Made by a program: the position numbers and the translations under genes. From assembly GCF_012933555.1 (NCBI RefSeq), contig NZ_JABBPK010000001.1:4070001-4134000 (forward strand): 64,000 nucleotides of DNA, written 5' to 3'. Positions 25,967-54,152 of this stretch are shown here, in pieces. Origin of the DNA: Niallia alba. GTDB lineage: Bacteria > Bacillota > Bacilli > Bacillales > Cytobacillaceae. The notes beneath the pieces were generated by a model. That model ran no database searches, was not told the origin of the DNA, and saw only the letters and a program-made list of their open reading frames with translations. The stretch's first letter is position 1. Every line of letters begins with the position of its first letter.

Positions 25967-26097
25967 TGTTATTTTTCATAATCTTTCGGAATGCAATCTT
26001 GCTAAAGCGCCTATTTTTTTATTGTTTTCTTCATAATTATCAGGAACGGTCATTTTAATAGATAAACACTAATTATTTTTTCATATTTAATCGGAAA
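25967..26097. repeat. Left end of the Tn7-like element with three TnsB-type sites
   Basis: Sites read TTTTTCATAATCTTTCGGAATG at about 25972, TCTTCATAATTATCAGGAACGG at about 26028 and TTTTTCATATTTAATCGGAA at about 26076. The spacing is loose, as in Tn7 left ends. No gene lies between here and the NACHT stop at 26294. Confidence 0.8.
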
Positions 26098-26293
26098 AAA
26101 TATTTTGTTTTCTATTAGAAATAATATATTAGCTACAGAACTACAAAGAATATAAAGGTGGCTATGCAGGAGGAAGAGCAACTTTTGGGGCAAAAATAAT
26201 TCAAAAAAGCTACACAAATGATAAAATAATCAAAATGTGTAACTTTAAATTTGGGTGTAAATTTTAGGATTTTAATTAACTCTCTATATAATA

Positions 26294-28444
26294 CTAATCA
26301 ACCCAATTTATTGATTTCAAGTCTTGCTCTAGCCATTTATAAATAATGTCAGTTATTGGTGTATCCTCGAATATATCTAATACTTGACCAGTACGAGTCA
26401 CACTTAACCACATACAATCATCTCGACGATATTCTTTAATTTTTTTACCAATTTCATAGATAATATTATCATCAAGATGAAAATCATCTGAATCTTCTTT
26501 TGTAAATTGGATATCTAAAATAAAATCTTTATAATCTGACGGCAAAGGTTCTAAGTGCCAATTTAATCCCGGACCCGCAGAGAATCCATCTGTTTCTTTA
26601 GGTGCTTGTAAATCTCCTTTTAGAGTAAAAGGATAAAGTACAAACTTCCTTAACCTATTTTTTAATAATGGGAAGAATGTTTCAACAATCTCTTTATATC
26701 CAATAATCACTTCTTTATAAATTTTTACAGTTCTTATATATAGCTGTTCATCGGAGTAGGCACTCCATACCCAATCGTCTTTAGGATTTTCAATATCCTC
26801 CCCAGGTATCGGACATTCTACAACATTAATACCTTTAATCTCTAAATTTGCAATGTAATCCTTATACAATGACATTGGAACTCGTTTTTTATTTACATTT
26901 ATATCTGAAATATTCTGATATTCTTTTTCAATTCTAGATTTTATTTCATTTATACTGATACTTTTGGTGTATAAAGAGCCTTTCCTGACTATTTTTAAGG
27001 AAGTGCTCCACATTAATTCTTTATAAATTATCTCTGTACAGATGGGCAATGCCTTATTTTTAATTATTTTTGTTAATTTACCCCTTAATTCCTCGAATGT
27101 CCATCTCCAATACCAACTTGATCTATCACCTGGTCTAGCTCCTTTATAACTTAGCCAGTCATATTCAATCTTATTTCCATCTAGGATATTGATTTCAGGC
27201 AGTTTTTTTCTTCCCCTATACCAAGATATATATAACCATTCGTCATCTTTCATTATTCCAATAGGTAGGATAGTTCGATTCATATCCACTGGTGCAATAA
27301 TATCAGCTAAGATGCCTAAAGATTTTATCCAAGAACTCATGGTCATTCTAATTTTTTCTCCACATTCTTGTGTTGATAAAGAGGTTATATCATTATGAAT
27401 TCCCCATTTTTTTATACTTTCCTCTATTAGTACTGAAGCAAAACCTGGTACCTTTTCTACAATTTCGCGAAGAATATTGTCAATAGTATCCTCCTTAAAT
27501 ATGGTAATTAGAATAATAAGAGGATATTTCCAGTAATCTAAAGTACCCTTTTCAATTATGTGATTAATATTTATCATATTTTCGGATAACGACTTAGCAG
27601 CAAACCATTGATTCAATATCGGAAGAACAAATGATATGTAACCATTTTCTTCAATAATCAAACCACTGTTTAAGAGACTCCTAACTTCGACAATGTCACC
27701 TATTTCAGTCTTTTTAACAGGAACATTTCCACTGCTAGTACTTATCATAGCTAAATTCATTAGTAACTGATTTGTATTTGATTCATTTATTTCTACATTT
27801 TTAAAGGCGTTTTCTATTAAGTATGCTAGTAGTTCGCCACTGGTATTTGGGATTATATTATTTGTTTTTCTTAAATATAATCCAAGTAAAATCGCGAAAA
27901 GAGGACGTTGAATTACTACTTCTATGTCTTTAGGTAGATTGTAAAAATGATAAAGTTTTTGCTGATTGTTGATAAAATTTACTATCTCTAATGCTTCATC
28001 TTCATTCAAACCTTTCATTCTTATCTTTTCAGAGATATTAGCAAAAATACTTAATGGTCTGCTTGTAAGGATTATGCAGAGATTATCCCATCTTTCAATA
28101 GCTATACGCATATTTTCTAATATATTTGATGCGATTGATACTGATACTTCATCCATTCCATCTACTATAATCCAGTATCTTTTTGATTTATCAAGAACTA
28201 TTTTTTCTAGATACTTTTGAACGTCAATGTCTAATTGTGCTGCATTTATACATATCGGAATAGGAAAATCAAATTCATTCTCTGCTCTTAATAACAAATC
28301 TAAATAAATCTTATCAATAGCAAAAGATTTACCTAGTCCAAACTCACCTTCTATTACTACTAATCGTTTTTCGTCAGTTGGCTTTAAATATTCAAAATTA
28401 TAGTGTTTATTCTCTAAAAAATATAAAGCTTGTTCTTTATCCAA
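26294..28444 (-). CDS. NACHT-type STAND NTPase, candidate anti-phage sensor
   Basis: This 716-residue protein (from a TTG) has a NACHT-type P-loop module at the N-terminus: Walker A GEFGLGKS (33-40), Walker B YWIIVDGMDEV (90-100), and sensor LTSRPLS. A winged-helix-like region follows, then a long C-terminal part (about 380-716) with no repeat pattern I recognise. NACHT and related STAND ATPases oligomerise on sensing a phage product and activate an attached effector. Upstream, the same frame stays open back to the A10 run in the hydrolase gene (28507-28516), so both may make one ~1010-residue fusion. No ribosome site precedes the TTG. Confidence 0.75.
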   Translation of the reverse strand: MDKEQALYFLENKHYNFEYLKPTDEKRLVVIEGEFGLGKSFAIDKIYLDLLLRAENEFDFPIPICINAAQLDIDVQKYLEKIVLDKSKRYWIIVDGMDEVSVSIASNILENMRIAIERWDNLCIILTSRPLSIFANISEKIRMKGLNEDEALEIVNFINNQQKLYHFYNLPKDIEVVIQRPLFAILLGLYLRKTNNIIPNTSGELLAYLIENAFKNVEINESNTNQLLMNLAMISTSSGNVPVKKTEIGDIVEVRSLLNSGLIIEENGYISFVLPILNQWFAAKSLSENMININHIIEKGTLDYWKYPLIILITIFKEDTIDNILREIVEKVPGFASVLIEESIKKWGIHNDITSLSTQECGEKIRMTMSSWIKSLGILADIIAPVDMNRTILPIGIMKDDEWLYISWYRGRKKLPEINILDGNKIEYDWLSYKGARPGDRSSWYWRWTFEELRGKLTKIIKNKALPICTEIIYKELMWSTSLKIVRKGSLYTKSISINEIKSRIEKEYQNISDINVNKKRVPMSLYKDYIANLEIKGINVVECPIPGEDIENPKDDWVWSAYSDEQLYIRTVKIYKEVIIGYKEIVETFFPLLKNRLRKFVLYPFTLKGDLQAPKETDGFSAGPGLNWHLEPLPSDYKDFILDIQFTKEDSDDFHLDDNIIYEIGKKIKEYRRDDCMWLSVTRTGQVLDIFEDTPITDIIYKWLEQDLKSINWVD

Positions 28445-28503
28445 ACCATTTGCCTTAAGTCGTGAAATAGATTTTGCTAAAGTTAGCTTTCTTTGCTCAT
28501 CTA

Positions 28504-29325
28504 TTATTTTTTTTTTAATACAATATCTCTTTCAAAAATCTCATTTACTGCTTCACTAACATGTCTGTAACTTATAGAACTATGATTTTCTACTTTCAAG
28601 ATCCCACTATGATCTCCTGGAAGAGGAATTCCTCCTGTCCATTTCGATCTGACAATATGTGGAATGGCGCTGTTTTCTGGCACAATAGTATCCTCTGTTC
28701 CAAAGAAAAATTTAAAATCTAAATTAATTGTTTCTAAATGCTTTTGCCATAATCTTATCGTTTCATCTAAAAAACTGCTATTAGGCTCTAAAGATGGAAT
28801 TTGAGCATGCTTGTTTATACTTTTTATTAATTGATTATATAAAGCAAATGAAGAACCATTATATGGTGTAGCTAAACTAATCATACCTTTTACATTATGA
28901 GTTTGATTATGTTCAAGTTCCTCGAGAATATATCTTATAGCTACTAATCCACCCATACTATGACCGATTAATAATACATTTTTATATTGCTTAATTTTTT
29001 TAGAGTCAATTTCTCTTTTTAATTCCCTAGCCAAAGTTTCAATAGTAGTAAAAGGACCTTTTCCAACAGAAAAACTTTTAAATTTACCTAGTTTAAGTTT
29101 TTTAATTCCCATTAGAGCCAATAATCCGTTTGCTAAATGGAATGTATCATAAGTTATTTCCGCTACATCTACATTTTTAAATGTATCATCAGTTAAAAAT
29201 AGATCTATCCATGAAATACCATCCTGTTTCCATGTATTATCAGATGCACCAAGTCCATGTATCAGTACGATTAAATTATCATTTTTTATATCATTTTTTT
29301 TATGTAACAATAAATTTAACGCCAA
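28504..29325 (-). CDS. Alpha/beta serine hydrolase (PGAP1/lipase-like), partner of the NACHT protein
   Basis: This 273-residue hydrolase has the oxyanion segment VLIHGLGASDNTW, nucleophile Ser123 in GHSMGG, likely acid Asp212 in FGTEDTIVP, and His239 in PGDHSGI. It resembles PGAP1-like esterases and lipases. It starts at a TTG behind GAGGGATTTGAA. The end is unusual: GTATT then A10, giving LKKK and a stop. One extra A would join it to the NACHT frame. In STAND defence proteins an N-terminal hydrolase is often the toxic effector, so membrane lipid or ester cleavage on activation is a reasonable guess. Confidence 0.8.
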   Translation of the reverse strand: MALNLLLHKKNDIKNDNLIVLIHGLGASDNTWKQDGISWIDLFLTDDTFKNVDVAEITYDTFHLANGLLALMGIKKLKLGKFKSFSVGKGPFTTIETLARELKREIDSKKIKQYKNVLLIGHSMGGLVAIRYILEELEHNQTHNVKGMISLATPYNGSSFALYNQLIKSINKHAQIPSLEPNSSFLDETIRLWQKHLETINLDFKFFFGTEDTIVPENSAIPHIVRSKWTGGIPLPGDHSGILKVENHSSISYRHVSEAVNEIFERDIVLKKK

Positions 29326-29732
29326 TTCAAATCCCTCATTTATCCATATAACAAAATGTTAACACTCATAGTCAATTATACCAAGATATGCTTCATCATT
29401 CATTACAATAAGCGAAATACATTGAAACTTCGCTATCTTTCAAAATTACTAACTTTCACCATCTCTTTATCTTTTGAAACAAGATTGTAAGTTTGATTAG
29501 AGTTCATTATATCAATTTCTATCTGGAACGAAAAAATCATAATAATCACCTTGTATAATTATTCTGCTCCCATAGCGACAAAAGGAAGAGAAGTTCCATT
29601 TATTCAAGGGAAGCACCCATTTGTTTAAGTACATTTTTTTACAAGCTCTTCTTCTTAACTTAGTATTGGATATATAACACTTTTGCAAAAAAGACCCCAA
29701 GTACTCTACACCCGAGATCTAAATGTTAATTT

Positions 29733-31376
29733 TTATTTATTCTTCATATAATTTTGGTAATTCTTATTTCCACCAGAAAGATTATATATATCATTAAACC
29801 CTAAGTTACGCAAAACATTTTGTGCAGCATTCCCAGTGACTCCACCATTACAGTAAGTTACGGTTGGTAAGTTACGATCAAGCTCTCTACTTTTCACACG
29901 CAATTCACCTAGTGGTATATTTATCGCACTCTCCACTTTTGATACATTATGTTGTTTTGGTGCTCTGGTATCAATTACTTGAAGAGCTTCTCCTTTTTTT
30001 ATTCTCTCCGTTAGTTCCTTTGGTGTCATCAACTTATTTTTCTTTTCGATAGCATTTTGCAGAGCCATTCCAGTGTACATTACTGGATCTTTTGTTGTAC
30101 TGAATGGAGGTGCATAGGCAAGATCAAGATGGAATAAATCTTCTGCTTTTGCTTTAAACGTCATTGCCGTTACAAATACATCAATTCGTTTATCCACACC
30201 TTCTTCTCCTACTATTTGGACACCTAATACTCTGCCAGATTCTCTATCTGCAATTGCTTTAATAACTAATTCTTTTCCTCCGAGGTACTCTGCTCTAGCT
30301 GGCTTAATATTATGAAGTATTTCAATATCATATCCTTCTTCTAAAGCTTCCACCTCATTCATACCTGTTTGACCAACAGCCAAATCAAATACTCTTAAGA
30401 TACCAGTACCTAAAATACCTCGGTGTTCTAAAGAACCTCCCGTTATTACATCTCCAGCTATTCTTCCCATTTTATTAGCTGTACTTCCTAATGGACGATA
30501 GATAGGTTTTCCTGTAATAACGGAGTAGCTTTCAGCAACATCACCAACAGCATAAACATCAGGAAGGTTAGTCTGCATTTTGGAGTTAACTGCAATAGCT
30601 CCAGTACTACCAATTTCAACACCGATTTCCTTAGCCAATTGTGTATTTGGACGAACACCCGTAGCTAATATAACAATATCCGTTTCAATAGCTTTTCCTG
30701 ATTTAGTTTGTACTTCCTTCTTGCTTATCGCAGTTACCTCATCATTTAAGATGAGATTGACTCCTTTTTTAACTAAGTGTTCTTCCACTCGTGAAGCGAT
30801 ATCTTTATCCATATGTGCCATTACATGATTACTACGTTGTACGATTGTTACCTCTAAACCTCTATGAGTAAGCTGTTCTGCCATTTCTAATCCAATATAG
30901 CCAGCTCCTATGATGGTTGCTTTCTTTGGTTGGTTTGCTTTCATATATTGATCAATAGCTGCTGTATTTTGTATCGTACGAACTTGGAAAACATGCTCTC
31001 CATCTACTCCATCAATATCAGGTTTAATTGGAGAAGCCCCTGTTGCAAAAACCAATACATCATAAGAGTCTTCTTTTATTTCATTTGTATCTAAGTTCTT
31101 CACTTGAACTTTCTTCTGCTCGGCATCAATTGTAGTTACTTCATGACGAGTAAAAATATCTACGTTATATCGCTTTTTAAACCAAGCAGCACTTCTTGGA
31201 GTTAATGTTTCCAGATTTTCTACTTCTCCACCTAGAAAATAAGGAATACCGCATATGGAATAAGAAATGTCATAGTCTGCATTATATAGAGTGATTTCCG
31301 CATTTTCATCGTTCCTACGTGCCTTTGCTGCTACAGATGTTCCTGCTGCTACAGATCCTATAATTAGTACTTTCAT
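29733..31376 (-). CDS. CoA-disulfide reductase with C-terminal rhodanese
   Basis: This 547-residue protein has a flavin disulfide reductase (about 1-440; LIIGSVAAGTSVAAKARR, Cys42 in YSICGIPYF, IGAGYIGLEMAE) and then a rhodanese domain (VIDTRAPKQHNV; cysteine in VTYCNGGVTG). Unlike the 655-residue chromosomal protein it lacks TusA and is clearly a separate lineage. I start at the ATG at 31376 behind GGAGGATATAA. It follows arsB in the transposon arsenic cluster. A role in thiol/persulfide balance during metalloid stress is inference. The 29326-29732 gap holds nothing clear. Confidence 0.85.
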   Translation of the reverse strand: MKVLIIGSVAAGTSVAAKARRNDENAEITLYNADYDISYSICGIPYFLGGEVENLETLTPRSAAWFKKRYNVDIFTRHEVTTIDAEQKKVQVKNLDTNEIKEDSYDVLVFATGASPIKPDIDGVDGEHVFQVRTIQNTAAIDQYMKANQPKKATIIGAGYIGLEMAEQLTHRGLEVTIVQRSNHVMAHMDKDIASRVEEHLVKKGVNLILNDEVTAISKKEVQTKSGKAIETDIVILATGVRPNTQLAKEIGVEIGSTGAIAVNSKMQTNLPDVYAVGDVAESYSVITGKPIYRPLGSTANKMGRIAGDVITGGSLEHRGILGTGILRVFDLAVGQTGMNEVEALEEGYDIEILHNIKPARAEYLGGKELVIKAIADRESGRVLGVQIVGEEGVDKRIDVFVTAMTFKAKAEDLFHLDLAYAPPFSTTKDPVMYTGMALQNAIEKKNKLMTPKELTERIKKGEALQVIDTRAPKQHNVSKVESAINIPLGELRVKSRELDRNLPTVTYCNGGVTGNAAQNVLRNLGFNDIYNLSGGNKNYQNYMKNK

Positions 31377-31436
31377 ATTTATATCCTCCAAAATTAGTAT
31401 CAATATTACTCTGTATAATTAACAATTCCCGTTCAT

Positions 31437-32735
31437 TTATGAAAGAATGGAAAGCCACAGATATAAGCCGATTAGAGTTATCAAAAGGGTTGGAATAGTT
31501 AAGACAATACCTGTTTTAAAATAAGTTCCCCATGATATTTTTACACCTTTTTGAGATAAAACATGGAGCCATAACAACGTTGCTAATGAACCAATTGGTG
31601 TAATCTTAGGACCTAAATCAGATCCAATAACATTGGCATAAATTAACCCTTCTTTTATTACTCCTGTAGCATTTGTATCTGCAATTGCTAATGCATCAAT
31701 AAGTACAGTTGGCATATTATTCATTATGGACGATATGATTGCTGCAATGAATCCCATTCCCATGGTTGCAACAAACAATCCTTGGTCTGCAGCTGCTTGA
31801 ATAACACTAGATAGCAGGTCTGTTAAACCTACATTACGCAATCCATAAATTACGACATACATTCCAATAGAGAAGAATACAATTGCCCACGGAGCACCCT
31901 TTACTACTTTCTTAATAGATACAGCAGCGCTTCTTCTTGCAAATACAAGGAAAATAATCGCAATTACACCTGCTATGATTGAGACTGGAATAGACAGGAA
32001 TTCACTCACGAAATAGCCAATAAGTAAAACAGCTAAAATCATCCAAGATAAACGAAACATCTTTAAATCTTTTATTGCTTCTTGTGGTACTTTTAATTGA
32101 TTTAAATCATAAACCTTTGGAATTCTTTTACGGAAATATAAGTACAACACCAGGATACTTGCTATTAAAGAAAAAATATTTGGCACAATCATTCTGGATG
32201 CATATTCTACAAATCCGATATCAAAGAAATCAGCAGAAACAATGTTGACCAAATTACTAACAACTAAAGGTAATGATGTAGTGTCTGCTATAAAACCACT
32301 TGCAATGATAAACGGAAAAACCATTTTCTCGTCTAACTTTAAAGCTCTAACCATCGCTAAAACGATTGGTGTTAAAATTAGTGCTGCCCCATCGTTTGCA
32401 AAAAACGCTGCAACAATAGCACCTAAAATAGCAACGTAAACAAACATCTTGAGTCCATTACCACCAGCAACTCTTGCCATATGTAAAGCTGCCCATTCAA
32501 AAAATCCTATTTCATCTAAGATTAAAGAAATAATAATGATTGCGACAAATGCAAGTGTTGCATTCCAAACAATTCCAGTTACGTCAATGACATCATAGAA
32601 ATCAACTACACCAACAAGAAGAGCTAATATTGCCCCGCCACATGCTGACCAACCAATCGAAAGATTTTTCGGTTGCCAGATAACTAATGTCAGTGTTACT
32701 AAAAAGATAATTATTGCTAATATAGTTTGTAACAA
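31437..32735 (-). CDS. arsB: Arsenite efflux pump ArsB
   Basis: This 432-residue membrane protein has 10-12 helices and the ArsB pattern: [56 protein letters not shown] and a mirrored second half with [13 protein letters not shown]. It extrudes arsenite or antimonite using proton motive force; no arsA is present. It starts at a TTG with GGAGGTTAAC upstream, immediately after arsR. Confidence 0.92.
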
Positions 32736-32750
32736 AGCTGTTAACCTCCA

Positions 32751-33080
32751 TTAATTACATATAATTCTTAAACCCTTTTCCTCCAGCCATTGAAATTTTT
32801 CTCTCTGACTTGGTACATGTTTTAATAACTCTTTTACTAATGCATAGTATTCACTTGATGTGTTTAAAGAATAAACCACCCATTGACCTTTTCTTTGTTC
32901 TTTAACAATTCCAAGATCTCGCATCTTCCGTAAATGCTGGCTAATAGAAGGTTGTGACATATTAAAAATTTCAACAAATTCACAGACACAACATTCCTGT
33001 TCATCCAACATGCTTACCATAGATAATCTTGTTTTATCTCCTAAAAGCTTTAATACATTTGCAGTATCCTTTAAATCCAT
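32751..33080 (-). CDS. arsR: ArsR-type arsenite-responsive repressor (copy next to arsB)
   Basis: This 109-residue winged-helix repressor has the metalloid site ECCVCEF and recognition helix MSQPSISQHLRKMRDLGIV. The annotated ATG is 22 bp from GGGAGG. A CTG four codons earlier (33092) is 9 bp from it and lengthens the N-terminus to match the sister ArsR (ATVMDLKDTANVLKLLGD). CTG may be the real start. It probably represses the arsB transcript. Confidence 0.88.
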   Translation of the reverse strand: MDLKDTANVLKLLGDKTRLSMVSMLDEQECCVCEFVEIFNMSQPSISQHLRKMRDLGIVKEQRKGQWVVYSLNTSSEYYALVKELLKHVPSQREKFQWLEEKGLRIICN

Positions 33081-33203
33081 TACAGTTGCCAGATTTATTT
33101 ACCTCCCTTAGTATCTTCAAAAAAAAATGGTACTCATGTAACAAACCAAAGATATTAATGAAGAACTCATTTGCGTATATAATTATATGCTTATATGTTA
33201 ATT

Positions 33204-33234
33204 ATAAAAAAAGTTAATGTCAACGACATTAACC
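33204..33234 (-). terminator. Terminator after the upstream arsR
   Basis: On the minus strand GTTAATGTC GTT GACATTAAC is a perfect 9 bp hairpin followed by seven T. It separates the upstream ars transcript from arsR-arsB. Confidence 0.8.
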
Positions 33235-33247
33235 CTTATTATTTTAT

Positions 33248-33586
33248 TTATTCACAAGAAATACGCATTCCGTTTTCCTCAAGCCAAATAAATTTTTCAT
33301 TTTGATTTGGAATGTAATTTAAAATGTTTTTAATCATAGGGAAATATTGATTTCCTTGGTCTAGAGAATAGATAACCCATTTGCCTTTTCTTTGCTCTTT
33401 AACCAGACCAGCATCTTTTAATTTTCTCAAATGTTGACTTATAGCTGGCTGTGACATTTGAAACACATCCACAAATTCACATACACAGCAGTCATTTATC
33501 ATTAGCATTCCCATTATGGATAACCTTGTCTTATCACCTAGTAGTTTCAAAATATTCGCAGTAGTATCTATTTGTTCAATAGTCAT
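33248..33586 (-). CDS. arsR: ArsR-type repressor (second copy)
   Basis: This 112-residue ArsR-family protein is closely related to the downstream copy, with DCCVCEFVDVF and MSQPAISQHLRKLKDAGLV. Start ATG follows GGATGATTATAC. The two repressors are separated by a terminator, so each may control a different transcript or have different inducers. Confidence 0.88.
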   Translation of the reverse strand: MTIEQIDTTANILKLLGDKTRLSIMGMLMINDCCVCEFVDVFQMSQPAISQHLRKLKDAGLVKEQRKGKWVIYSLDQGNQYFPMIKNILNYIPNQNEKFIWLEENGMRISCE

Positions 33587-33699
33587 GTATAATCATCCGT
33601 TCCATTTGAATTACTTTTATACTAAATGGAGTAGTCATAGTATGCAAGAAAATAAGAGTTAGTTGAACTCTTATTTTCTCTTTTCAATAGTATATTTAA

Positions 33700-33909
33700 T
33701 TAATGAGCTATTTCCTTCTCTAATTCGCAATAAGCTCGAATGAAATTATTATAGGATATAGATCCAAGTGTATTTTCTTTATTGCTAAATAATCTTGCAA
33801 AAGCCTTTTCTCTTGCTAATTCAATGGAAACTTCCAAACTATTCATGATTAATTTCATGTAAGCTTTAAAATAATCTTTACTTAGATTGCCACCTTTATT
33901 TATAACCAT
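33700..33909 (-). CDS. Small protein in the arsenic cluster, function unknown
   Basis: This 69-residue predicted soluble, helical protein (MVINKGGNLSKDYFKAYMKLI...CELEKEIAH) lies between the FAD monooxygenase and arsR genes. A GGGAGATAT ribosome site supports the start. I do not recognise the family; position suggests a metalloid-related role. Confidence 0.6.
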   Translation of the reverse strand: MVINKGGNLSKDYFKAYMKLIMNSLEVSIELAREKAFARLFSNKENTLGSISYNNFIRAYCELEKEIAH

Positions 33910-33931
33910 ATATCTCCCTCACTCTTAATTA

Positions 33932-35305: not shown

Positions 35306-35306
35306 A

Positions 35307-35834: not shown

Positions 35835-35903
35835 TTTTCCAACTCCTTAATTGACTTTCACATTAATTGACTTTATCAATTATAATATTTAATGAAAGCC
35901 ACC

Positions 35904-36362: not shown

Positions 36363-36382
36363 ATATTATCGCCTCTAATTAG

Positions 36383-41739: not shown

Positions 41740-41801
41740 ATTATCACCTAGTTTACCAGAGTATTTTTTTGGAGATTATTATATTTGAGGTGAAGAACAT
41801 C

Positions 41802-43624: not shown

Positions 43625-43633
43625 TTGATAAAT

Positions 43634-45024: not shown

Positions 45025-45101
45025 TAAAGATTAAAATAGCTTTCTAATGACTGAATCCTACTGAATTTTATTAATTATTCAAAAAAGCTGAGATTTTATA
45101 T

Positions 45102-45959
45102 TTATTCTTCTATAATTAGCTTTACATCACTTTTACTATATATTTTAAATTTATTCTGGAAATGATTTAATACAGGGCTAATGTCTTTACTAGTTAATGT
45201 GTTTAACAGTAAGTCAATGTCTTGGGAAACAAGATCACTAAGCTGAGATAAATTAATATAATTATTTTTGTATTTTTTTGCTTCATTTACTGAAAAATAT
45301 GGCTTTTCCATTAGTTCGGTTGGTTTTAATAGCCCATATTTGATTAACAAACTAATTTGACTATTTTTTATCCCTAGGTATTTAACTAGTTCCAGTCGAG
45401 ATAATACCCCTTTTCCTGTTTCTAACTTATTTTTTAGTGACTCTTCCCATACTTCATTTTTTCTAATAAGATATCGTTTTAAGCCTGTATCTTTCACTCT
45501 TTTATCAACCACACGTATTTTCCCCTTGACTATAAGTGTAATCATATCGGATAAATTGGTGCCTACTGAATATTTAATACTCTTTGTAATATCTGTTAGC
45601 TCTTCTTCATTACAAGAAATTTGATTACTTTGTAAACAATATCTTTCATACCTTTTCTCTATAATTCGGAAGATTTGGTCAATCTTCCGCCGGTCATATA
45701 ATACTTCATTAGTACCATTAATGATTGGAGAACTTTTTACTTCCAAAAGAGTCTTTTCTAAAGAAATCACACCGTTAAGTGATATGTTTAAAATACTACT
45801 TGTTACTTTTCTATTAACCAAGAATCTTTTATTTGAAAGATATCTATTAACACTTTCTCTCGATATTAATAAAAATTCTTCTCTCTCCTTGGTAATACTC
45901 GCTTTAAGAAATCCATTAGCTATAAGTTTTTTTACAGTAACGTGTTTGCATTTTAACAT
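45102..45959 (-). CDS. Helix-turn-helix-rich companion of TniQ-1 (possible split TnsD C-terminus)
   Basis: This 285-residue protein contains repeated predicted helix-turn-helix segments (VTVKKLIANGFLKASI...LISRESVNRYL; LSRLELVKYLGIKNSQISLLIKYGLL). It starts 7 bp inside the 3' end of tniQ-1, so the two are translationally coupled. Together they total about 630 residues, the size of TniQ-2 or TnsD, with the same N-TniQ, C-HTH order. The simplest reading is a TnsD divided into a TniQ core and a separate DNA-reading subunit. No family name recognised. Confidence 0.65.
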   Translation of the reverse strand: MLKCKHVTVKKLIANGFLKASITKEREEFLLISRESVNRYLSNKRFLVNRKVTSSILNISLNGVISLEKTLLEVKSSPIINGTNEVLYDRRKIDQIFRIIEKRYERYCLQSNQISCNEEELTDITKSIKYSVGTNLSDMITLIVKGKIRVVDKRVKDTGLKRYLIRKNEVWEESLKNKLETGKGVLSRLELVKYLGIKNSQISLLIKYGLLKPTELMEKPYFSVNEAKKYKNNYINLSQLSDLVSQDIDLLLNTLTSKDISPVLNHFQNKFKIYSKSDVKLIIEE

Positions 45960-46943
45960 GTTAGCGACTTGTGTGATAATGAAAGATAATAAGCACTATA
46001 AATATCCTTGTTAAAACTCCTACTATTTGAAATTAATGAACTATCCCAGTTTTTAAATATATAATTTTCAAATTCATTTCTTAAGAAGTCCATTTGAGGA
46101 TGATTATACTTATTATATAAATCAATAAAAAAGTAGCCAAAGTTATTAATATAACTGCCTCTATCATATTTAGGCTTACACTTCTTAAAATTTATGTACA
46201 ATTCCAAAAAATCAGAATAATTAACAGGCCAATTTTCGAATCTTTTTGTAATGTTCATAATTAAGGTAGTAAATTCTCTATCTTCATATTCAAATGGAAT
46301 TGAAATACTCCCTACTCTACTCTTATCTCTATAGTACAATCTTATAAAAAAGTGATAAATCAATAAGATATATTTTAGATCAAGTTTAGTTAACAAATTT
46401 AGATTACTTTCTTTAAAATTTCTGGTATCAGAGTTAAATTTATAATAGATGATTCTCGACACGAAGGAATTGCTTTCGTCAGCATTTTTAACTTTTAAGG
46501 TCCTTAAGTCCTTATTACATTTACAATAATAAAACTTCTTTCTATATTGTTTAATTGGTTTTCCACAGCTACTACATGAAGAAACAAGGAAACAATTATG
46601 TATTGGACATACTAAAAAAATTCTTATATCCCATAATTTATGATGAATACCAACAGTTTCAAGGCATCTAGGACATACCTTAGCATGAGCATTCATCAAA
46701 CTGTCTTGATACAAAGAAAAATTAAAATGCTTAAATTTTCCTTTTTCATAGTCAAACTCGTTATAAAATGTAGTTATTAATAATTCATTAAGTGACAAGC
46801 CAGTTAAATTCATTAAAGATGAAAAATCAAATTTCCATGGTAGCAGATTGCGAGGACCAATATAGTGATTAAAATCAGAATCGTTTAATATCCATGTATT
46901 TGTTTCATACATATTTTCAATTGATAATCTATTAATATAACTA
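45953..46943 (-). pseudogene. tniQ: tniQ-1, 3' part (interrupted by the mer transposon)
   Basis: This part holds most of a TniQ protein: YINRLSIENMYETNTWIL, zinc ligands CPRC...CPIHN and CSSC...CKC. The apparent start (MLSVQNFRNVGCTP, at 46984) is only the translated inverted repeat of the inserted Tn3-family element. The true start is at 53980. Joining the pieces and dropping one AACTA gives an uninterrupted 347-residue frame. Confidence 0.85.
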
Positions 46944-46994
46944 GGGGTACAGCCAACATTTCGGAAATTTTGTACGCTAAGCAAATTTCCATCT

Positions 46995-47037
46995 AAAAAA
47001 GCCGATTTTTCCTACGTTAAGGAATCATCGGCTTGAT
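46995..47037 (-). terminator. Terminator after merA
   Basis: Minus strand AAGCCGATGATTCC...GGAAAAATCGGCTTTTTT: hairpin with a T run 15 bp past the merA stop. Confidence 0.8.
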
Positions 47038-47049
47038 ATTAAGAGATGG

Positions 47050-48690
47050 TTATCCTGCACAACAAGATAGTTTGGATACATCTTTGTCAAACGTTAGAGC
47101 AGCCAGCTTCAGTCCTTCTGCCATTGTCAAATATGGTGCAAGGGTTTCGCGAAGATCCTCTACGGTTAAACCGAATTTGACAGCTAATGTCGCTGCATAA
47201 ATCACGTCTCCTGCGTTTTCTGCCACCACATGAGCCCCTAATATTTTCAACGTTTTCGCGTCCGCAACCAGTTTAAACACGCCTGTTGTTTCCCGATTAA
47301 CCAGTGCTCTTGGAACGGCATCTAACGGCAAGACGGAAGTTTTCACTTCATATCCTTTCTCTTTTGCCTGTTGCTCCGTTAAACCAACTGTTGCAATTGC
47401 TGGAGCTGTAAATGTAACCCCCGGAATCACTTCTAAATTCAGCTTTTTGTTCAGTCCACCGATAGCATTTCCTGCCGCAACTCCACCTTGATAAGCTGCT
47501 ACATATACAAATTGGGAACCAAGCGTGACATCTCCTGCTGCATAGATGCGTGAATTCGTTGTTTTTGAATACTCATCGATTACGATTTCACCACGGGGGC
47601 CTACTTCAACGCCTGCATCCTGTAAATTCAAGGTTGCCGTGTTTGGTGTTCTTCCTGTGGCAACCAGTAATTGATCTGCCTCAATGATTCGCTTCTTGCC
47701 ATTTACCTCAACATGGACCTTTTTAATGTCTCCATCTTGTTCGATTCGTTCAAAAGATGCTCCCGTCACTAAGTTGACCCCTTGTTCTGTCAAGGCTTGC
47801 GTGATTGCTTCTGAAACCTCAGGATCGTACTCCTTTAATAATTGCGGGCTTCTTTGCATCAACGTGACTTCTGAACCTAGATTATGGAAGAGTTGTCCCA
47901 ATTCCATCCCGATATATCCAGAACCGATGACCGTAAGACGCTTAGGCACCTTCTTTAATTCAAGTAGAGTTGTGCTTGTTAAATAATCGACTTCATCCAT
48001 TCCAGGAATGTTTGGCACTGCTGGTGAAGCACCTGTCGCGATTAAGAATCGTTTGGCTGACAACTGCATGCCATTGACTTCAACGGTTTTTTCATCTACG
48101 AATTTCGCTTCGCCTTTGATTAATTCAAAGCCATAGTCATCAATCAAATCCACATATTTTGAGTTTCGAAGATCCGTCACCAGTTCATTTTTCTGCTTGA
48201 TCAATGGTGCCAAATCAACGTCGCCAGCTGACGTGTGCAATCCGATGAATGGATTATTTTTTGCCAGATGATTGATTTCGCCAGCCCGAAGCAAAGTCTT
48301 TGAAGGAACACAGCCGATGTTCACGCATGTTCCACCAACCGTACCACGTTCAATGATTGCCACTTTTGCTCCGTATTTCACGGCTTCGATGGCAGATGAA
48401 AAGGCAGCCCCACCAGAACCGATGATGATGTAGTCATAATCACCTTCATCACCTAACTGCATCATTTCTTGCGATTGTACTTCTTCTGCTTTGCCTGGTT
48501 GATATTTCGCTTCAGCAATCGCTTTTTTCGCTGTTTCAACCTCTAAGCCATTTGGTAGCTCAAATACAGCTTCGCCACGACGAAAATCTACTTCAATCCC
48601 TCTTGCACCCATGTTTTCAAGAGCAACAGCTACATGCTCTTCACAACCCGTACAAGTCATCCCTTGAACGTTCACTCGATATTTTTTCAT
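47050..48690 (-). CDS. merA: Mercuric reductase
   Basis: This 546-residue NADPH-dependent flavoenzyme reduces Hg(II) to volatile Hg(0) in the cytoplasm. One N-terminal heavy-metal domain (GMTCTGC, Cys13/Cys16) is followed by the disulfide reductase with FAD motif [13 protein letters not shown], redox pair [13 protein letters not shown], and the C-terminal vicinal cysteines Cys543-Cys544 (LSCCAG) that hand mercury to the active site. No merB is present, so resistance is to inorganic mercury. Confidence 0.97.
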
Positions 48691-48705
48691 GTTAACCCTC
48701 TCCTT

Positions 48706-49043
48706 TTATTCGACTCCAAGCCCGAAATCCGAAACTGCCGTCTTAATTGCCTGTAAATCCGTTTTCTTATCATCAAAGGAAACCGTTACTTCGCCCTTGC
48801 TTCCACTGACTTTAATGGCTGTTTTGCTAACGCCATCTACCTGTTCCAGGACGCTTTCTACAACAGACGGCGGACAACAATCCATCCCCAAAACCGTGAA
48901 TGTCCCTGTTTTAGATGTTTCAATGGTAGCTTTTGCTTCCTGCTTAGCATCCATAGTATTTTGTGCTTTTTTTCGTTACTACACGCACTAACCACCAGCA
49001 GAAGGGATAATGCCATCATAATCCTGATTATCTGTACTCTCAT
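48706..49043 (-). pseudogene. merP: merP-like mercury-binding lipoprotein, frameshifted
   Basis: The 5' frame begins at an ATG behind GGGGTG with a lipoprotein signal (ALSLLLVVSAC, Cys21). After NEKK it shifts frame at an A7 run near 48969-48975. One extra A links it in frame to AQNTMDAKQEAKATIE and the heavy-metal domain with GMDCCPPSVV, for 112 residues. It would trap Hg(II) outside the membrane for MerT. True mutation, slippage or sequencing error are all possible. Confidence 0.75.
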
Positions 49044-49066
49044 ATATAGCACCCCAATCTTTATAG

Positions 49067-49363
49067 TCAACTTTCAACTAGAAATAAAAAAAGAAACATG
49101 CCGAAAACGAAAAACGTCGTAATCCATAAGCCAATGACAGAACTTTTACTTTTGCCCTTTCTCCCATAAACCATGTAAAACGAGTAAGCAAGAAGGATAA
49201 TGGTAACGATGCTGAACAATAACCGATACTTTAGTGAATAGAAGGCTAATGCTCCTGCAAATCCAGTTAGTCCAAGAGGAATGAAAATCAGTGGACCTAG
49301 GCAGCATGCAGCCATAACAAAAGCTGAAAATACAGTAGCTACTTGCGACACTTTTTCCTTCAT
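49067..49363 (-). CDS. merT: Mercuric ion transporter MerT
   Basis: This 98-residue membrane protein with three helices has the mercury-binding cysteine pair in VMAACCLGPL in the first helix. It carries Hg(II) inward to MerA. It overlaps merE by 4 bp. No second cytoplasmic CC pair is seen, making it a short MerT form as in Bacillus mer operons. Confidence 0.85.
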   Translation of the reverse strand: MKEKVSQVATVFSAFVMAACCLGPLIFIPLGLTGFAGALAFYSLKYRLLFSIVTIILLAYSFYMVYGRKGKSKSSVIGLWITTFFVFGMFLFLFLVES

Positions 49364-49617
49364 GATTTAAACCTCTCCATACTGCAACAATCATGCGTTT
49401 TTGTTTCCTTTTTTGTTTCTGGGTCAAGTTTTCTCCAGCCCTTGAAAAGAGCAAAGACAAATAACAGACCCATCACGATGAAAATAACATCTTTAAAGTC
49501 CGTGAAGTATGAACCCAGTGCCGTTCCTGCAACCAACGGAAGCAGTAAAAACAGATGACACGGGCATGTGATTAGTGCGACAAGAAACCAGCCTGAACTT
49601 TTTATTGTGTTTTTCAT
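49360..49617 (-). CDS. merE: MerE-like mercury transporter
   Basis: This 85-residue membrane protein has two helices and the CPCHL motif (ALITCPCHLFLLLPLVAG) of MerE-type carriers for mercury. A second cysteine pair occurs near the end (HDCCSME). It lies between merR and merT with a 4 bp overlap to merT. Confidence 0.75.
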   Translation of the reverse strand: MKNTIKSSGWFLVALITCPCHLFLLLPLVAGTALGSYFTDFKDVIFIVMGLLFVFALFKGWRKLDPETKKETKTHDCCSMERFKS

Positions 49618-49630
49618 CCTGTTTCACCTC

Positions 49631-50029
49631 TTATTTCTTCATCAATGTTTCAATAATGGGGCATTCGTAAATATCTTTGTTTTCAGGACATCTTTCTTTA
49701 AGATCCATCAGCATTTGTTCAATTCTTTTGAGATCTTGAATTTTATGCTGGATGTCTTCTATCTTAAGAACGGTGAAATCATACATATCACGGCACTTTG
49801 CTTCATCGCGATCGACGACCCCTAGCAATTTGTCAATTTCATTTAAGCTAAATCCTAATTCCTGCATCCGTTTTATGAAATTCAACCGATCGACCGTTTG
49901 TTGTGAATACATTCGGTATCCTTTTTCGGTACGATCAGGCTCTGGAATTAAGCCTAAACGCTCATAATATCGAATGGTCTCTTTGTTAACGTTACACTTC
50001 TCAGCGATTTCCCCGACTCGAAAATGCAA
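49631..50029 (-). CDS. merR: MerR mercury-responsive regulator
   Basis: This 132-residue MerR protein has an N-terminal winged helix (FRVGEIAEKCNVNKETIRYYERLGL) and the three mercury ligands Cys79, Cys114 and Cys123, the exact trio known from the Bacillus protein. It represses and, on binding Hg(II), untwists the promoter to start mer transcription. It is itself the first gene of the operon, as in Gram-positive mer loci. Confidence 0.95.
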   Translation of the reverse strand: MHFRVGEIAEKCNVNKETIRYYERLGLIPEPDRTEKGYRMYSQQTVDRLNFIKRMQELGFSLNEIDKLLGVVDRDEAKCRDMYDFTVLKIEDIQHKIQDLKRIEQMLMDLKERCPENKDIYECPIIETLMKK

Positions 50030-50050
50030 TTTACTTCACCTCACATATAA

Positions 50051-50082
50051 TATAAACCCTGTACCATAGTACAGGGTCAATA
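50051..50082 (-). promoter_or_regulatory. mer promoter and MerR operator
   Basis: ACCCTGTACCATAGTACAGGGT (50056-50077) in two arms forms a near-perfect palindrome. On the minus strand it sits between TTGACC and TATATT with the overlong ~19-20 bp spacing typical of MerR-controlled promoters. Confidence 0.85.
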
Positions 50083-50282
50083 TATTTTTTACTACCTTCA
50101 ATTAAATGATTCCAATACCGAAAACGACCGTTTATGGTACTGATAAATATTTTTTAAAAAACAACCAATTTCTATTAATCTATAGAACCAAAACTCATTC
50201 CCAAAATCAAAGTAACATTTTTAGTATCTAATACCGTTTTTGGTGCTAATATAGGGTTATAAACTACTTTTGCAGGTGATGA

Positions 50283-50837
50283 ATGATGATATTTGGTTAT
50301 GCACGTGTAAGTACGGAGGAACAAAACTTGGATATGCAAGTTGATGCACTTACAAAATTTGGGGTGGAAAAAATTTATAAAGAAAAATTGACCGGAACTA
50401 GAAAAGATAAACCCCAACTTGAAGAACTTCTTAAAGTCTTACGCAGTGGCGACAAAATTGTTGTATATAAACTGGATCGTATTTCACGTTCTACAAAACA
50501 TTTAATTGAACTTAGTGAATTATTCGATGATCTGGGCGTGGATTTTGTCTCTATTAATGACAGTATTGATACTTCAACTGCAATGGGGAAGTTTTTCTTT
50601 CGTACAATGGCAAATATTGCAGAGTTAGAACGAGATATTATTAGCGAAAGGACAAAGTCAGGGCTTCAAGCAGCAAGATCCAGAGGAAGGAAAGGTGGCA
50701 GACCATCGAAGAAAAAGGACAAAGTTGAAATGGCAATAAAAATGTATAAGAGCAAGGATTATACAATCAACCAAATTACAGAAGCAACAGGAATTAGCAA
50801 AACCTCACTGTATAGATACTTAGACAAAGTAAATTAG
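50283..50837 (+). CDS. tnpR: Tn3-family serine resolvase TnpR
   Basis: This 184-residue serine recombinase has catalytic serine in YARVSTEEQNLDMQ, the DRISRSTKHLIEL segment, ERDIISERTKSGL and a C-terminal helix-turn-helix (NQITEATGISKTSLYRYL). It resolves cointegrates at a res site, which is presumably in the 50100-50282 stretch (AT-rich with repeated imperfect arms, no gene). Start follows AGGTGATGA. Confidence 0.9.
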   Translation: MMIFGYARVSTEEQNLDMQVDALTKFGVEKIYKEKLTGTRKDKPQLEELLKVLRSGDKIVVYKLDRISRSTKHLIELSELFDDLGVDFVSINDSIDTSTAMGKFFFRTMANIAELERDIISERTKSGLQAARSRGRKGGRPSKKKDKVEMAIKMYKSKDYTINQITEATGISKTSLYRYLDKVN

Positions 50838-50873
50838 GCTCATACCAAAATTATTAATAAGGATTGATTTAAC

Positions 50874-53822
50874 TTGAGTGTGAAAGAACTGCTGACACAA
50901 GAACAGCGCAAGGAAATTTTAAACCTTAATAATTTATCAGAATTTGAATTTACTTCTTATTACAGTCTATCTGACTATGATATTGATGTTATAAATCGTC
51001 ATAGAAGAGATCATAATCGCTTAGGGTTCGCACTCCAATTATGCATTCTTAGAAATCCCGGTTGTTCTTTAATTAATATGTTAGAAATACCCGAAAACCT
51101 TATTAAATATGTCGCTAATCAAATTAATGTAGATCCAGAGGTTTTCTCTTCATATGCTCAACGTGATACAACTAGACGTGAGCATTTAGAAGAAATACGT
51201 CAAGTATATGGATATAGAAACTTTAATAACAGTGATTATCGTACGATTTCTAATGTTCTTTTAAAAGCCGCATTGGAAAATGGGAATTCAATGTATCTAG
51301 TACGCACAGCAATTGATTTATTAAGAAAGGAAAAAACAATTCTTCCTGCCATACCAACAATCGAAAGGATGGTTTGGATAGCAAGAACGCGTGCAGAGAA
51401 AAAAATATATGCCATACTAACAAGTAATCTTTCCGAAAGACATAAGCGTGAACTAGAAAAGTTAATCGATTTAACGGTAAATAATAATAAAACCCAATTA
51501 GCTTGGCTTCGGGAAATTCCCGGACAGTCGTCACCAGATTCTTTTATAAAAGTCATAAAAAGATTAAAGTACATTAAAGAAATGAATATTGCAGCCAATA
51601 CGGCATTAATACACCCCAATAGACTTTTACAATTGGCACGAATTGGGGCAAGATATGAACCCCATTCTTTTAGAAGATTTAACGAAGATAAAAGATATGC
51701 ATTATTAGTCGCTCACTTAATCACTCTCTCCCAAGACTTAACTGACCATGCCATTGAAATTCATGATAGACAAATGATGGTGTTACAAGCAAAAGGCAGA
51801 AAAACACAAGAAGAGATGCAAAAACAAAATGGAAAGTCAGTAAATGAAAAAGTTGTGCATTACGCAGATATAGGAACGGCTTTAATTAAAGCCAAAGAGG
51901 AAGGTATTGATCCCTATGTGGCATTAGAGCAAGTAATGCCGTGGGATAAAATTGTAGAATCGATTGAGGAAGCTAAATTATTATCAAGACCAATGGATTA
52001 TGATTACCTTGATTTAATAAAAACTCGATATAACTATTTAAGGAAATATACTCCGAGCTTGTTGGATTCTTTAGTGTTCAAATCTACTAAATCAGCAGAG
52101 CCTTTATTAAAAGCATTAGATACCATACGCGAATTAAATGATTCTGGAAAAAGGAAAATCCCTGATGGCTCACCTTTGAGTTTTGTTCCTAAACGTTGGC
52201 AAAAACATGTTTTTGATGATGAAGGTAACATTAACCGTCAATATTATGAAATGGCTGCCTTAACAGAACTCAAAAACTCTATCCGTTCTGGTGATGTTTG
52301 GGTTGAAGGTAGTCGATTACATAAGGATTTTGAAGAATATTTAGTGTCAAAAGATGATTGGGGAAAAGCAAAGACTGAAGGGACTAATATAGCTGTTAAT
52401 ATAAGTTTTGAACAGTATATACAGGAAAGATGCGAAACTTTAAATACTAAACTTCAATGGATTTCTAAAAATATTGATAAAGTTGAAAGTATCAACATTG
52501 AAAAACAAAGGATACATATTGAAAGACTTCAAGCTGATACTCCTGAAGAAGCTAGAAATTTCAGCTTATCGCTTTATAATATGCTTCCTAGAGTTAAACT
52601 TACTGATTTATTAATGGAGGTAGCTGAATGGACTGGATTTGACGAATCATTTGTTCACGCTTCTTCAAATCAACCCCCTAAAGGTGAGGAAAAGTCTATT
52701 GTGATGGCTTCAATAATGGCAATGGGGACAAATATTGGATTAACTAAAATGGCAGAAGCAACTCCTGATATTTCATATCGCCAGATGGCCAATGTTATGC
52801 AATGGAGATTACATGAAGATGCGATGACTCGCGCACAAGCTACACTGGTAAATTATCAGCACCGTATATCATTAACTTCATATTGGGGAGATGGGACAAC
52901 ATCATCTTCTGATGGTATGCGTGTTCCTGTCGGTGTATCATCGTTACATGCAGATTCAAATCCGCATTACGGAACTGGGAAAGGTACGACCATTTATCGT
53001 TTTACAAGTGATCAGTTTTCTTCCTTTTATGCAAAAGTTATTAATACAAATGCAAGGGATGCCGTACATGTGATAGATGGATTATTACATCATGAATCTG
53101 ACCTTTCAATTGAAGAGCATTACACTGATACAGCTGGTTACACGGATCAAGTTTTCGGATTAAGTCATTTGTTAGGGTTTCGTTTTGCACCAAGACTAAG
53201 AGATATAAGTGACGCTAAATTATATACCATTTCTTCTCCTAATAATTTTTCAAACATAAAAGGCATACTTCGAGGAAAGATTAACACAAACGTTATTAAA
53301 GAGAATTTTGATGATGTATTAAGGCTGGCACATTCAATTCGAGAAGGAAGAGTTTCTGGATCATTAATCATGGGGAAATTAAGTTCATATGCAAGACAAA
53401 ATAAAATAGCTACAGCTCTCAGAGAGATTGGGAGAATTGAAAAAACAATCTTTATTCTTGACTATATAACAAATGAAACATTAAGAAGAAGGATACATCG
53501 TGGGTTAAATAAAGGAGAAGCCATGAATGGATTGGCTAGAGCTTTATTTTTTGGTAAACGTGGAGAATTTAGAGAGCGTGGCATACAAGATCAACTACAA
53601 AGAGCCAGTGCGTTAAATATATTGATCAATGCAATTAGCGTATGGAATACTGTGTATTTAAGTGAAGTAACAAAAGAATTTAAGAAAAATAATGTCCTAA
53701 AAGAAGAATTACTTCCACACATTTCACCTTTAGGATGGGAACATATTAATTTTCTTGGAGAATATAAATTTGATTCAAATAGATTACCAGCTAATTCGCT
53801 AAGGCCCTTAAATAGAAACTAA
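50874..53822 (+). CDS. tnpA: Tn3-family transposase TnpA
   Basis: This 982-residue transposase starts MSVKELLTQEQRKEIL and has the C-terminal DDE domain: SYWGDGTTSSSDGMR, HVIDGLLHH and NKGEAMNGLARALFFGKRGEFRER. It is full length and should act on the GGGG-starting ends. It begins 36 bp after tnpR in the same direction. Confidence 0.93.
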   Translation: MSVKELLTQEQRKEILNLNNLSEFEFTSYYSLSDYDIDVINRHRRDHNRLGFALQLCILRNPGCSLINMLEIPENLIKYVANQINVDPEVFSSYAQRDTTRREHLEEIRQVYGYRNFNNSDYRTISNVLLKAALENGNSMYLVRTAIDLLRKEKTILPAIPTIERMVWIARTRAEKKIYAILTSNLSERHKRELEKLIDLTVNNNKTQLAWLREIPGQSSPDSFIKVIKRLKYIKEMNIAANTALIHPNRLLQLARIGARYEPHSFRRFNEDKRYALLVAHLITLSQDLTDHAIEIHDRQMMVLQAKGRKTQEEMQKQNGKSVNEKVVHYADIGTALIKAKEEGIDPYVALEQVMPWDKIVESIEEAKLLSRPMDYDYLDLIKTRYNYLRKYTPSLLDSLVFKSTKSAEPLLKALDTIRELNDSGKRKIPDGSPLSFVPKRWQKHVFDDEGNINRQYYEMAALTELKNSIRSGDVWVEGSRLHKDFEEYLVSKDDWGKAKTEGTNIAVNISFEQYIQERCETLNTKLQWISKNIDKVESINIEKQRIHIERLQADTPEEARNFSLSLYNMLPRVKLTDLLMEVAEWTGFDESFVHASSNQPPKGEEKSIVMASIMAMGTNIGLTKMAEATPDISYRQMANVMQWRLHEDAMTRAQATLVNYQHRISLTSYWGDGTTSSSDGMRVPVGVSSLHADSNPHYGTGKGTTIYRFTSDQFSSFYAKVINTNARDAVHVIDGLLHHESDLSIEEHYTDTAGYTDQVFGLSHLLGFRFAPRLRDISDAKLYTISSPNNFSNIKGILRGKINTNVIKENFDDVLRLAHSIREGRVSGSLIMGKLSSYARQNKIATALREIGRIEKTIFILDYITNETLRRRIHRGLNKGEAMNGLARALFFGKRGEFRERGIQDQLQRASALNILINAISVWNTVYLSEVTKEFKKNNVLKEELLPHISPLGWEHINFLGEYKFDSNRLPANSLRPLNRN

Positions 53823-53831
53823 TCCCTAACA

Positions 53832-53871
53832 TAAGCCAAATCCCTTAGCGTACAGGTATTTGGCTTTTTTT
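53832..53871 (+). terminator. Terminator after tnpA
   Basis: AGCCAAAT...ATTTGGCTTTTTTT, hairpin with T run, 10 bp past the tnpA stop and inside the right inverted repeat region. Confidence 0.8.
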
Positions 53872-53927
53872 GTGTCGAATTTTGCTTACCGTACAAAATT
53901 TCCGAAATGTTGGCTGTACCCCAACTA

Positions 53928-53980
53928 AAGATATTTTCATCTTTTCTAGGTTTAACTACACAAAGTAATTTTTTGTTCAA
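53928..53980 (-). pseudogene. tniQ: tniQ-1, 5' fragment
   Basis: A TTG at 53978-53980 behind GGGGGTGAT starts MNKKLLCVVKPRKDENIFS, the standard TniQ opening (KPRxDE). The frame is cut by the mer transposon at the AACTA duplication and resumes at 46938 as YINRL. The start lies ~170 bp inside the right end. Confidence 0.85.
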
Positions 53981-54081
53981 TAAATAATCACCCCCAAAAA
54001 AGTTATTTTACTTATAAGTTTAAAAGATATAATAATATATAATTGAGTAATCTTAAATCAATTTAAGATTACTCAATTTTT

Positions 54082-54152
54082 CATTCCGAATAATTATGAA
54101 AAACCATTCCGGTCAATTATGAAATTATTCCGGGGAATTAAGAAAAATCACA
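54082..54152. repeat. Right end of the Tn7-like element with packed TnsB-type sites
   Basis: Three abutting repeats of CATTCCG-N-AATTATGAAA are followed by the terminal copy ending AAAAATCACA at 54152. Close packing, compared with the spaced left end, is the Tn7 pattern. The right end faces minJ. Confidence 0.85.

Follow-up and report, generated by a model that had tools for sequence, protein, structure and literature searches.

In a 64,000-nucleotide stretch of the Niallia alba genome (the window; contig NZ_JABBPK010000001.1, positions 4,070,001 to 4,134,000), positions 25967–54152 hold a Tn7-like heteromeric transposon that very probably homes to the 3′ end of minJ through one TniQ-family selector, TniQ1; the same element also stands at a plasmid DUF3854 gene, an address that we infer is served by its other selector, TniQ2. 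The homing reading rests on what the sequences show: element ends, 5-bp target duplications, genes for TnsA, TnsB and TnsC with a pair of tniQ genes, repeated occupation of minJ in several genera, and constant spacing from a conserved coding motif. The geometry is of the Tn7/glmS type, and what is new is the gene. With minJ, the attachment genes known for Tn7 gain a chromosomal site at which such elements land widely among Bacillus-like bacteria.

Element boundaries and target duplications

The element opens with TGT at 25967, closes with ACA at 54152, and is flanked by TTTTT on both sides. The minJ stop codon lies on the minus strand at 54156–54158, overlapped by the right TTTTT copy. A preliminary description of this DNA had proposed these termini, internal repeats, and a duplication covering two bases of the minJ TAA; we confirmed each at the following coordinates.

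25967–54152, no strand: whole Tn7-like element, left to right end (TGT/ACA ends, TTTTT duplication, alignment of a near-identical copy)
25962–25966, no strand: left copy of the 5-bp duplication, TTTTT (sequence)
54153–54157, no strand: right copy of the 5-bp duplication, TTTTT (sequence)
25967–26097, plus strand: left end with three repeats resembling TnsB sites (25974–25993, 26029–26048, 26079–26097), predicted to bind TnsB
54082–54152, minus strand: right end with three repeats (54082–54101, 54105–54124, 54126–54145), matched by right-end model R1 at E 1.5e-18
54041–54078, minus strand: terminator-like hairpin just inside the right end (−17.5 kcal/mol), its tail T-rich but broken
54156–55364, minus strand: minJ, the target gene, intact (PDZ domain)
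54191–54230, minus strand: conserved minJ coding block (…EGDHHELG…), predicted TniQ1 recognition region (conservation in 35 junctions)

We take the gene at 54156–55364 to be minJ, the name also given in the preliminary description. The repeat CATTCCGGNNAATTATGAAA matches the window six times at up to three mismatches, against 0.08 matches expected, and a chance origin is rejected on these numbers; the match at 25934 falls outside the element. The boundaries are independent of any reading by eye, because near-identical elements at another site (genome G175, contig C2; genome G171, contig C67) align exactly from 25967 to 54152 and break at the same bases.

The Tn7-like identity proposed earlier holds. 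Pfam recognizes TnsA, TnsB, TnsC and a TniQ-domain protein, all intact in G175; the TGT/ACA termini enclose several predicted transposase-site repeats; insertion is oriented and at a fixed distance at the 3′ end of a conserved gene; and 5-bp target duplications flank the window element and others. Perfect duplications occur in nine of the 12 elements for which both ends were found. Six other minJ-inserted elements have one (G061, G101, G023 and G090 on one contig, G102 and G165 across two), the Niallia plasmid element has TTAAT, and an element in G182, at cotF-like genes, has a matching pair across two contigs.

minJ as a recurrent landing site

We searched 193 genomes of the family with a sequence-only right-end model built from 13 right ends, 11 of them at minJ. 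The search gave 58 matches at E ≤ 5.8e-5, a lower bound under strict filters and 25 scored candidates per genome. The minJ 3′ end, on the correct strand, accounts for 42 of the 58 across 11 genera, and for 31 of 45 once the 13 model rows are set aside; these counts are of genomes and not of insertion events. To count as lying at the minJ 3′ end, a right end had to share the strand of the MinJ match and fall between −5 and 120 bp of where that match ends. This position screen supplied 39, all within 28 bp except G114 at 93 bp, and G165, G113 and G070 complete the 42. minJ itself gave one match in 191 of 193 genomes and lies in two or three pieces in a few. The remaining 16 matches comprise left ends of minJ elements (G061, G102), the plasmid copies (G175, G171), a G113 copy 5.3 kb beyond minJ, three in G182, one in G186, two in G034, two on G056 contig C66, one on G070 contig C104 and two on G191 contig C33. 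G179 and G026 have weaker matches at minJ as well.

Selector genes recur there as well. TniQ1 relatives (E ≤ 0.001) are present in 26 of the 193 genomes. In eight of these 26, all of other genera, tniQ1 adjoins minJ, in a check of 30 of 40 listed places that took in 1.5 kb on each side. A DNA pattern scan gave, among the matches listed, 118 named stretches. In 13 of them minJ is present and a right end stands at the minJ stop; these 13 include Bacillus velezensis NRRL B-41580, B. siamensis KCTC 13613, Neobacillus bataviensis, Mesobacillus zeae, Fredinandcohnia and Fictibacillus. The remaining 105, which showed no MinJ, were taken as chance. The earlier proposal that minJ is targeted gains support from the 42 of 58, and relatives are not scattered over random sites, given this share and the six perfect duplications elsewhere. 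Several genera thus share minJ as an address, and the spacing of insertion there can be measured.

In B. velezensis NRRL B-41580 (L230, ~5609–6384), short TnsA-, TnsB- and TniQ-like fragments stand in a row within 0.8 kb beyond minJ and the right end there, the remains of a decayed element in a member of the B. subtilis group. Allobaculum mucilyticum NZ_CP078089.1 (L200, L201, L217 and others) has at least 10 pattern-scan matches, probably a repeat family unrelated to minJ.

Spacing of the insertion

Measured from the MinJ HELG codon, the element TGT lies 59–64 bp away in 35 of 35 junction rows and 60–65 bp away in 15 of 16 further rows, or 59–65 bp in 50 of 51. Two of the 51 are probably duplicates (Mesobacillus zeae of G100, FJAT-27225 of G024), leaving ~49 genomes. 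In the first junction set, whose choice was reused for the 35 rows, the TGT was the best-scoring one in a span that opened 12 bp before the MinJ match ended and closed 110 bp beyond that point; in the second set of 16 it was the best one 40–90 bp after HELG. The pattern that yielded eight named rows among the 35 restricted the spacing by its own design, and L232, L241, L250, L299 and L314, which have minJ and a right end, were left out as known or likely repeats or near-copies. G045 had no TGT 40–90 bp after HELG, and the G060 and G114 junctions score weakly in the second set. In G070 the distance is 61 bp and the minJ frame is broken; in G113, outside the 51 rows, it is 60 bp by eye and the terminal TGT reads TAT.

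The block LYEGDHHELG.LFV is conserved in the 35 junctions. The MinJ tail ends early in G087 and late in B. velezensis, B. siamensis and Fictibacillus, and the HELG distance is kept in all of them. These four are the informative rows for the offset from the stop, whose overall range is stretched because the G023, G022 and FJAT-27225 frames now end inside the element; in G023 the element lies inside the stop codon and the element end provides a new one. What is measured seems, from these spacings, to be a coding motif ~60 bp upstream and not the stop codon itself. The preliminary description had the element targeting the stop codon of minJ: the minJ 3′ end stands, but the distance seems to follow the motif rather than the stop. 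Natural minJ junctions are numerous enough for such a spacing rule to be read from them.

The right end brings a hairpin resembling a terminator and is able to provide a stop codon, and for these reasons minJ would stay usable; the earlier statement that minJ is left intact holds. A hairpin followed within 9 bases by no fewer than 5 T, 60–140 bp inside the end, was found in 23 of 23 right ends tested over a search range of 60 to 230 bp (the 23 include three near-copies of one element); mononucleotide shuffles gave one once (1 of 20, G154). The frame that reads TG|TRA has a stop in 22 of 22 right ends. That right ends carry stops in all three frames proved partly true: 7 of 22 do so within 24 nt, against 9% of shuffles. 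For genetic tools in Bacillales, minJ ends may also offer places at which to insert DNA.

A second address on plasmids

A plasmid database contained one record with this core, NZ_CP053316 of Niallia circulans GN03; searches with TniQ1 and TniQ2 otherwise returned distant matches only. Its element, at 11969–41840, is 99.7–100% identical to the window over five segments and is flanked by TTAAT twice, the right-hand copy holding the stop of a DUF3854 gene. In G175 and G171 the element is shifted 2 bp within the same DUF3854 stop region, and because the positions differ, the N. circulans and G175/G171 copies look like two insertions. The KGID codon of the DUF3854 gene lies 60 bp (N. circulans) and 58 bp (G175/G171) from the element. 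In element-free plasmids of Niallia sp. Man26 and Sutcliffiella horikoshii the DUF3854 gene ends at this place. The Man26 gene adjoins PrgI, pilin and DUF87 genes, which are of a kind found in transfer regions. minJ is therefore not the sole address, since the same element also stands at the stop of the plasmid DUF3854 gene.

The DUF3854 gene lies in two pieces ~2.7 kb apart in G045 (C11), G048 (C2) and G049 (C2) (L354–L356, L364–L366), and a group II intron gene adjoins it on a Cytobacillus firmus plasmid. In G182 (contig C8 from 124315, contig C5 to 41095; L193, L194, L087, L197), next to the cotF-like genes, ends whose TTTAA/TTAAA duplications match enclose TnsB and TniQ2 sets, two of each; this is another address and possibly a composite element. 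Further right ends follow a gene that its translation suggests is DNA-methyltransferase-like (L186; G186 C2 67511) and large genes ending LNFHRN(H/Q) (L187, G034 C18 66538; L188, G056 C66). All three are candidate target genes.

Two selectors and their assignment

The element encodes two TnsD-sized TniQ proteins, of 630 (TniQ1) and 614 (TniQ2) amino acids in G175. TniQ2 forms a separate clade (100/99) in a tree built from 27 TniQ N-terminal parts, and eight minJ-adjacent rows fall within an 11-row TniQ1 group (83/92), to which the plasmid copy, G182 and G070 C104 belong too. G102, whose two contigs are linked because their duplications match, and G090 share 94% identity in TnsB, 84% in TniQ2 and 29% in TniQ1, and both elements sit at minJ. 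Selectors of minJ elements appear, from this pair, to have been exchanged while the address stays; PMC10293859 reports few mixed pairs of this kind. Selector pairs compared share 23–32% identity, and most come from elements at the same gene, which makes DNA reading by TnsD-type proteins testable. The predicted TniQ1 fold (pLDDT 76, pTM 0.52) matches I-F3 TniQ at TM 0.33 by query length, with weak, non-significant matches to excisionase (Xis) and MerR-type proteins.

In the mechanism we propose, TniQ1, a TniQ core followed by predicted winged-helix repeats, would bind the HELG-coding block of minJ and recruit TnsC and TnsAB, which would then insert the element ~60 bp downstream of the block with its right end toward minJ. 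TniQ2 would serve the plasmid DUF3854 address at the same spacing. Two TnsD-like proteins and no TnsE would amount to a two-pathway life in the style of Tn7, on chromosome and plasmid. We lean towards this division of labor, in which TniQ1 reads minJ, TniQ2 reads the plasmid DUF3854 gene, the two TnsD-types replace the TnsD/TnsE pair, and the minJ selector has been swapped without a change of target.

It is possible, if rather unlikely, that TniQ1 alone reads both genes and TniQ2 is an accessory TniQ. Both targets place a conserved motif ~60 bp from the stop, and TniQ2-bearing elements of other genera are at minJ, with none seen at DUF3854. The DNA upstream of the two insertion points also shows a borderline ungapped likeness (N. 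circulans, 43% against 36% shuffled, p 0.05; G175, 41% against 37%, p 0.10). This resemblance allows for one selector but is not clearly above shuffles and is too unclear to argue for it, whereas the two proteins are both TnsD-sized and belong to distinct clades.

Other observations also weigh against the proposed homing and its two addresses. Of 13 genomes in the window's own genus, 12 lack a right-end match at minJ, the sole exception being this genome. Two rows of the TniQ1 clade are elsewhere (G182, at cotF-like genes, and G070 C104). The plasmid copy shared by G175 and G171 has no matching duplication, none being seen at its left flank; G052 likewise has none, and the left end of G056 is altered. 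Right ends occur at 2 of 14 DUF3854 3′ ends in the family (G171 and G175, one shared insertion) and at none of the 12 readable among 17 in a sample of the order (397 genomes), so the DUF3854 address has so far been seen in one genus.

That the right ends at minJ are inherited relics of one ancient insertion, rather than repeated homing, is improbable. Many right ends have no TnsB found with them (TnsB was matched in 15 of 193 genomes), and near-copies are present in sister species (G048/G049, B. velezensis/B. siamensis), both in its favour. Against this, insertion coordinates differ, the 5-mers before TGT are of 26 kinds in 35 junctions, matching duplications differ between elements, and the window element is 99.7–100% identical to a plasmid copy. 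Insertions also stand in tandem in the window, where an older right end adjoins the left duplication; G191, in which a left end, TTTGA and another right end follow in direct succession, offers a second sign of tandem insertion. Steering by local sequence, with minJ hit through a chance preference for A+T-rich stop and terminator regions, is more improbable still: insertion points are A+T-rich and related right ends occur at or near other gene ends (G186, G034, G056), but 42 of 58 matches are at one gene among thousands, there is no common 5-mer, and the HELG distance is kept in G087, B. velezensis, B. siamensis and Fictibacillus despite their differing MinJ tails.

Relation to known Tn7-like systems

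In Tn7, the right end faces the target gene. The element at minJ resembles Tn7 (TnsABC plus TnsD, at glmS) in TnsA, TnsB and TnsC, a TniQ-domain selector, the 5-bp duplication and a right end toward the target. It inserts at the stop, whereas Tn7 inserts ~20 bp after it, and it has a second long TniQ, with no TnsE family among its 23 open reading frames in a Pfam scan. Tn7 proper was rejected on the target, minJ and not glmS, and on this lack of TnsE. Tn7 recognizes a conserved 3′ coding region, and the minJ element is predicted to do likewise: counted from the centre of the duplication, TnsD of Tn7 extends over +23 to +58 (PMC2918618), and the conserved minJ DNA spans ~+36 to +75 by arithmetic from the junction rows.

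Among solved structures, TniQ1, TnsB and TnsC are closest by sequence to proteins of I-F3 CRISPR-associated transposons (CASTs). A CAST was rejected: the Pfam scan of the 23 frames found no cas family, and the sole short-spaced direct repeats of at least 20 nt are two right-end copies. Near the I-F3 CASTs lie Tn7017 and a dual tniQ–tnsD branch, which have two TniQ proteins as the minJ element does. That branch is mostly without Cascade and its second TniQ is usually much smaller (PMC10293859), whereas TniQ1 and TniQ2 of the minJ element both exceed 600 amino acids; the likeness is drawn from best matches to solved structures. Tn7017, in contrast to the minJ element, targets parE (PMC11406308) and works with a Cascade. 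BCEGI-1 of Bacillus cereus ATCC 10987 holds two Tn7-like tnsABCD sets in one island (PMC2359905), a likeness within Bacillus, but lies after glmS and not minJ. In Tn6022, TnsF reads a conserved coding motif at comM (PMC10293859); it splits comM via a tyrosine-recombinase-like selector, whereas minJ stays intact. Judged by title, no relevant paper connects Tn7 to minJ or DUF3854, though the site may stand in a supplementary table.

Genes of the element and state of the window copy

The genes and later insertions within the element are as follows.

36647–37618, minus strand: tnsC, TniB/AAA ATPase (Pfam TniB 4.8e-29; nearest solved structure Tn6677 TnsC)
37629–39680, minus strand: tnsB, DDE transposase (Pfam Mu-transpos_C 3.8e-9; PDB TnsB matches)
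41140–41739, minus strand: tnsA, 199 amino acids, end altered at an insertion sequence (Tn7_TnsA-like_N 5e-20; 212 amino acids in G175)
41769–45024, plus strand: tniQ2, pieces 41769–42233 and 43618–45021, split by an insertion sequence (614 amino acids, intact in G175)
45102–46984, minus strand: tniQ1, pieces 45953–46984 and 45102–45959 with a frameshift between (Pfam TniQ 2.2e-10; 630 amino acids, intact in G175)
39741–41145, minus strand: insertion sequence copy 1, DUF4372/DDE transposase (breakpoints with 9-bp overlap)
42223–43624, minus strand: copy 2 of the same insertion sequence, within tniQ2
46944–53922, no strand: Tn3-family transposon with mer-type genes, within tniQ1 (breakpoints with 5-bp overlap)
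26294–36362, minus strand: cargo, comprising a NACHT protein, an LmuA-like hydrolase, a redox protein, ArsB, two ArsR, an FAD protein, an acetyltransferase and MarR

Relative to G175, tniQ1 is cut near its start by the Tn3-family transposon and frameshifted, its start-proximal piece lying beyond that transposon near 53.92–54.0 kb; tniQ2 is split; and tnsA is shortened from 212 to 199 amino acids at the other insertion sequence copy. Both tniQ genes are broken, and the window copy, with its complete ends, therefore probably no longer moves by itself. The preliminary description's "complete" transposon is right for the boundaries but not for these three genes.

The Tn3-family transposon encodes a Tn3 transposase, a resolvase, MerR, MerE, a weak MerT match and a mercuric-reductase-like protein. 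The cargo acetyltransferase is named ArsN1 in the N. circulans record. Against the Lamassu LmuA model of PADLOC, the cargo hydrolase at 28504–29325 scores E 6.9e-20; it adjoins the NACHT protein at 26294–28444, and the two are possibly defence genes.

Chromosomal neighbourhood

Left of the element lie the remains of earlier insertion.

25934–25959, minus strand: outermost part of an older element's right end, beside the left duplication (weak R1 match at 25917–25954)
16110–25933, no strand: older inserted block of sulfur-metabolism genes and an IS1182 remnant (no tns genes found)

In comparison with G166, G167, G169 and G175, conserved chromosomal DNA on the downstream side of minJ restarts only at ~16.05–16.1 kb, so ~38 kb separates minJ from its old neighbour. 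A tblastn search leftward with the element proteins found no tns or tniQ remnant, only the IS1182 remnant. The older element's left end, sought through the expected duplication and TGT, gave only two chance-like matches, both in chromosome genes. An exact empty site was not found among relatives, which have different DNA, ~0.7–8.5 kb, after minJ; the nearest, G166 and G167, have TAAAAATGTAC after minJ, in agreement with TAAAAATG beside the older right end.

Farther out, relatives align repeatedly with window positions 2458–2971 at 52-bp shifts, a tandem repeat of ~52 bp in or near the gene at 2987–4222. At ~1.8–5.4 kb right of the window end (L063) lies a second transketolase–kinase–isomerase stretch, ~76–77% identical to that of G167.

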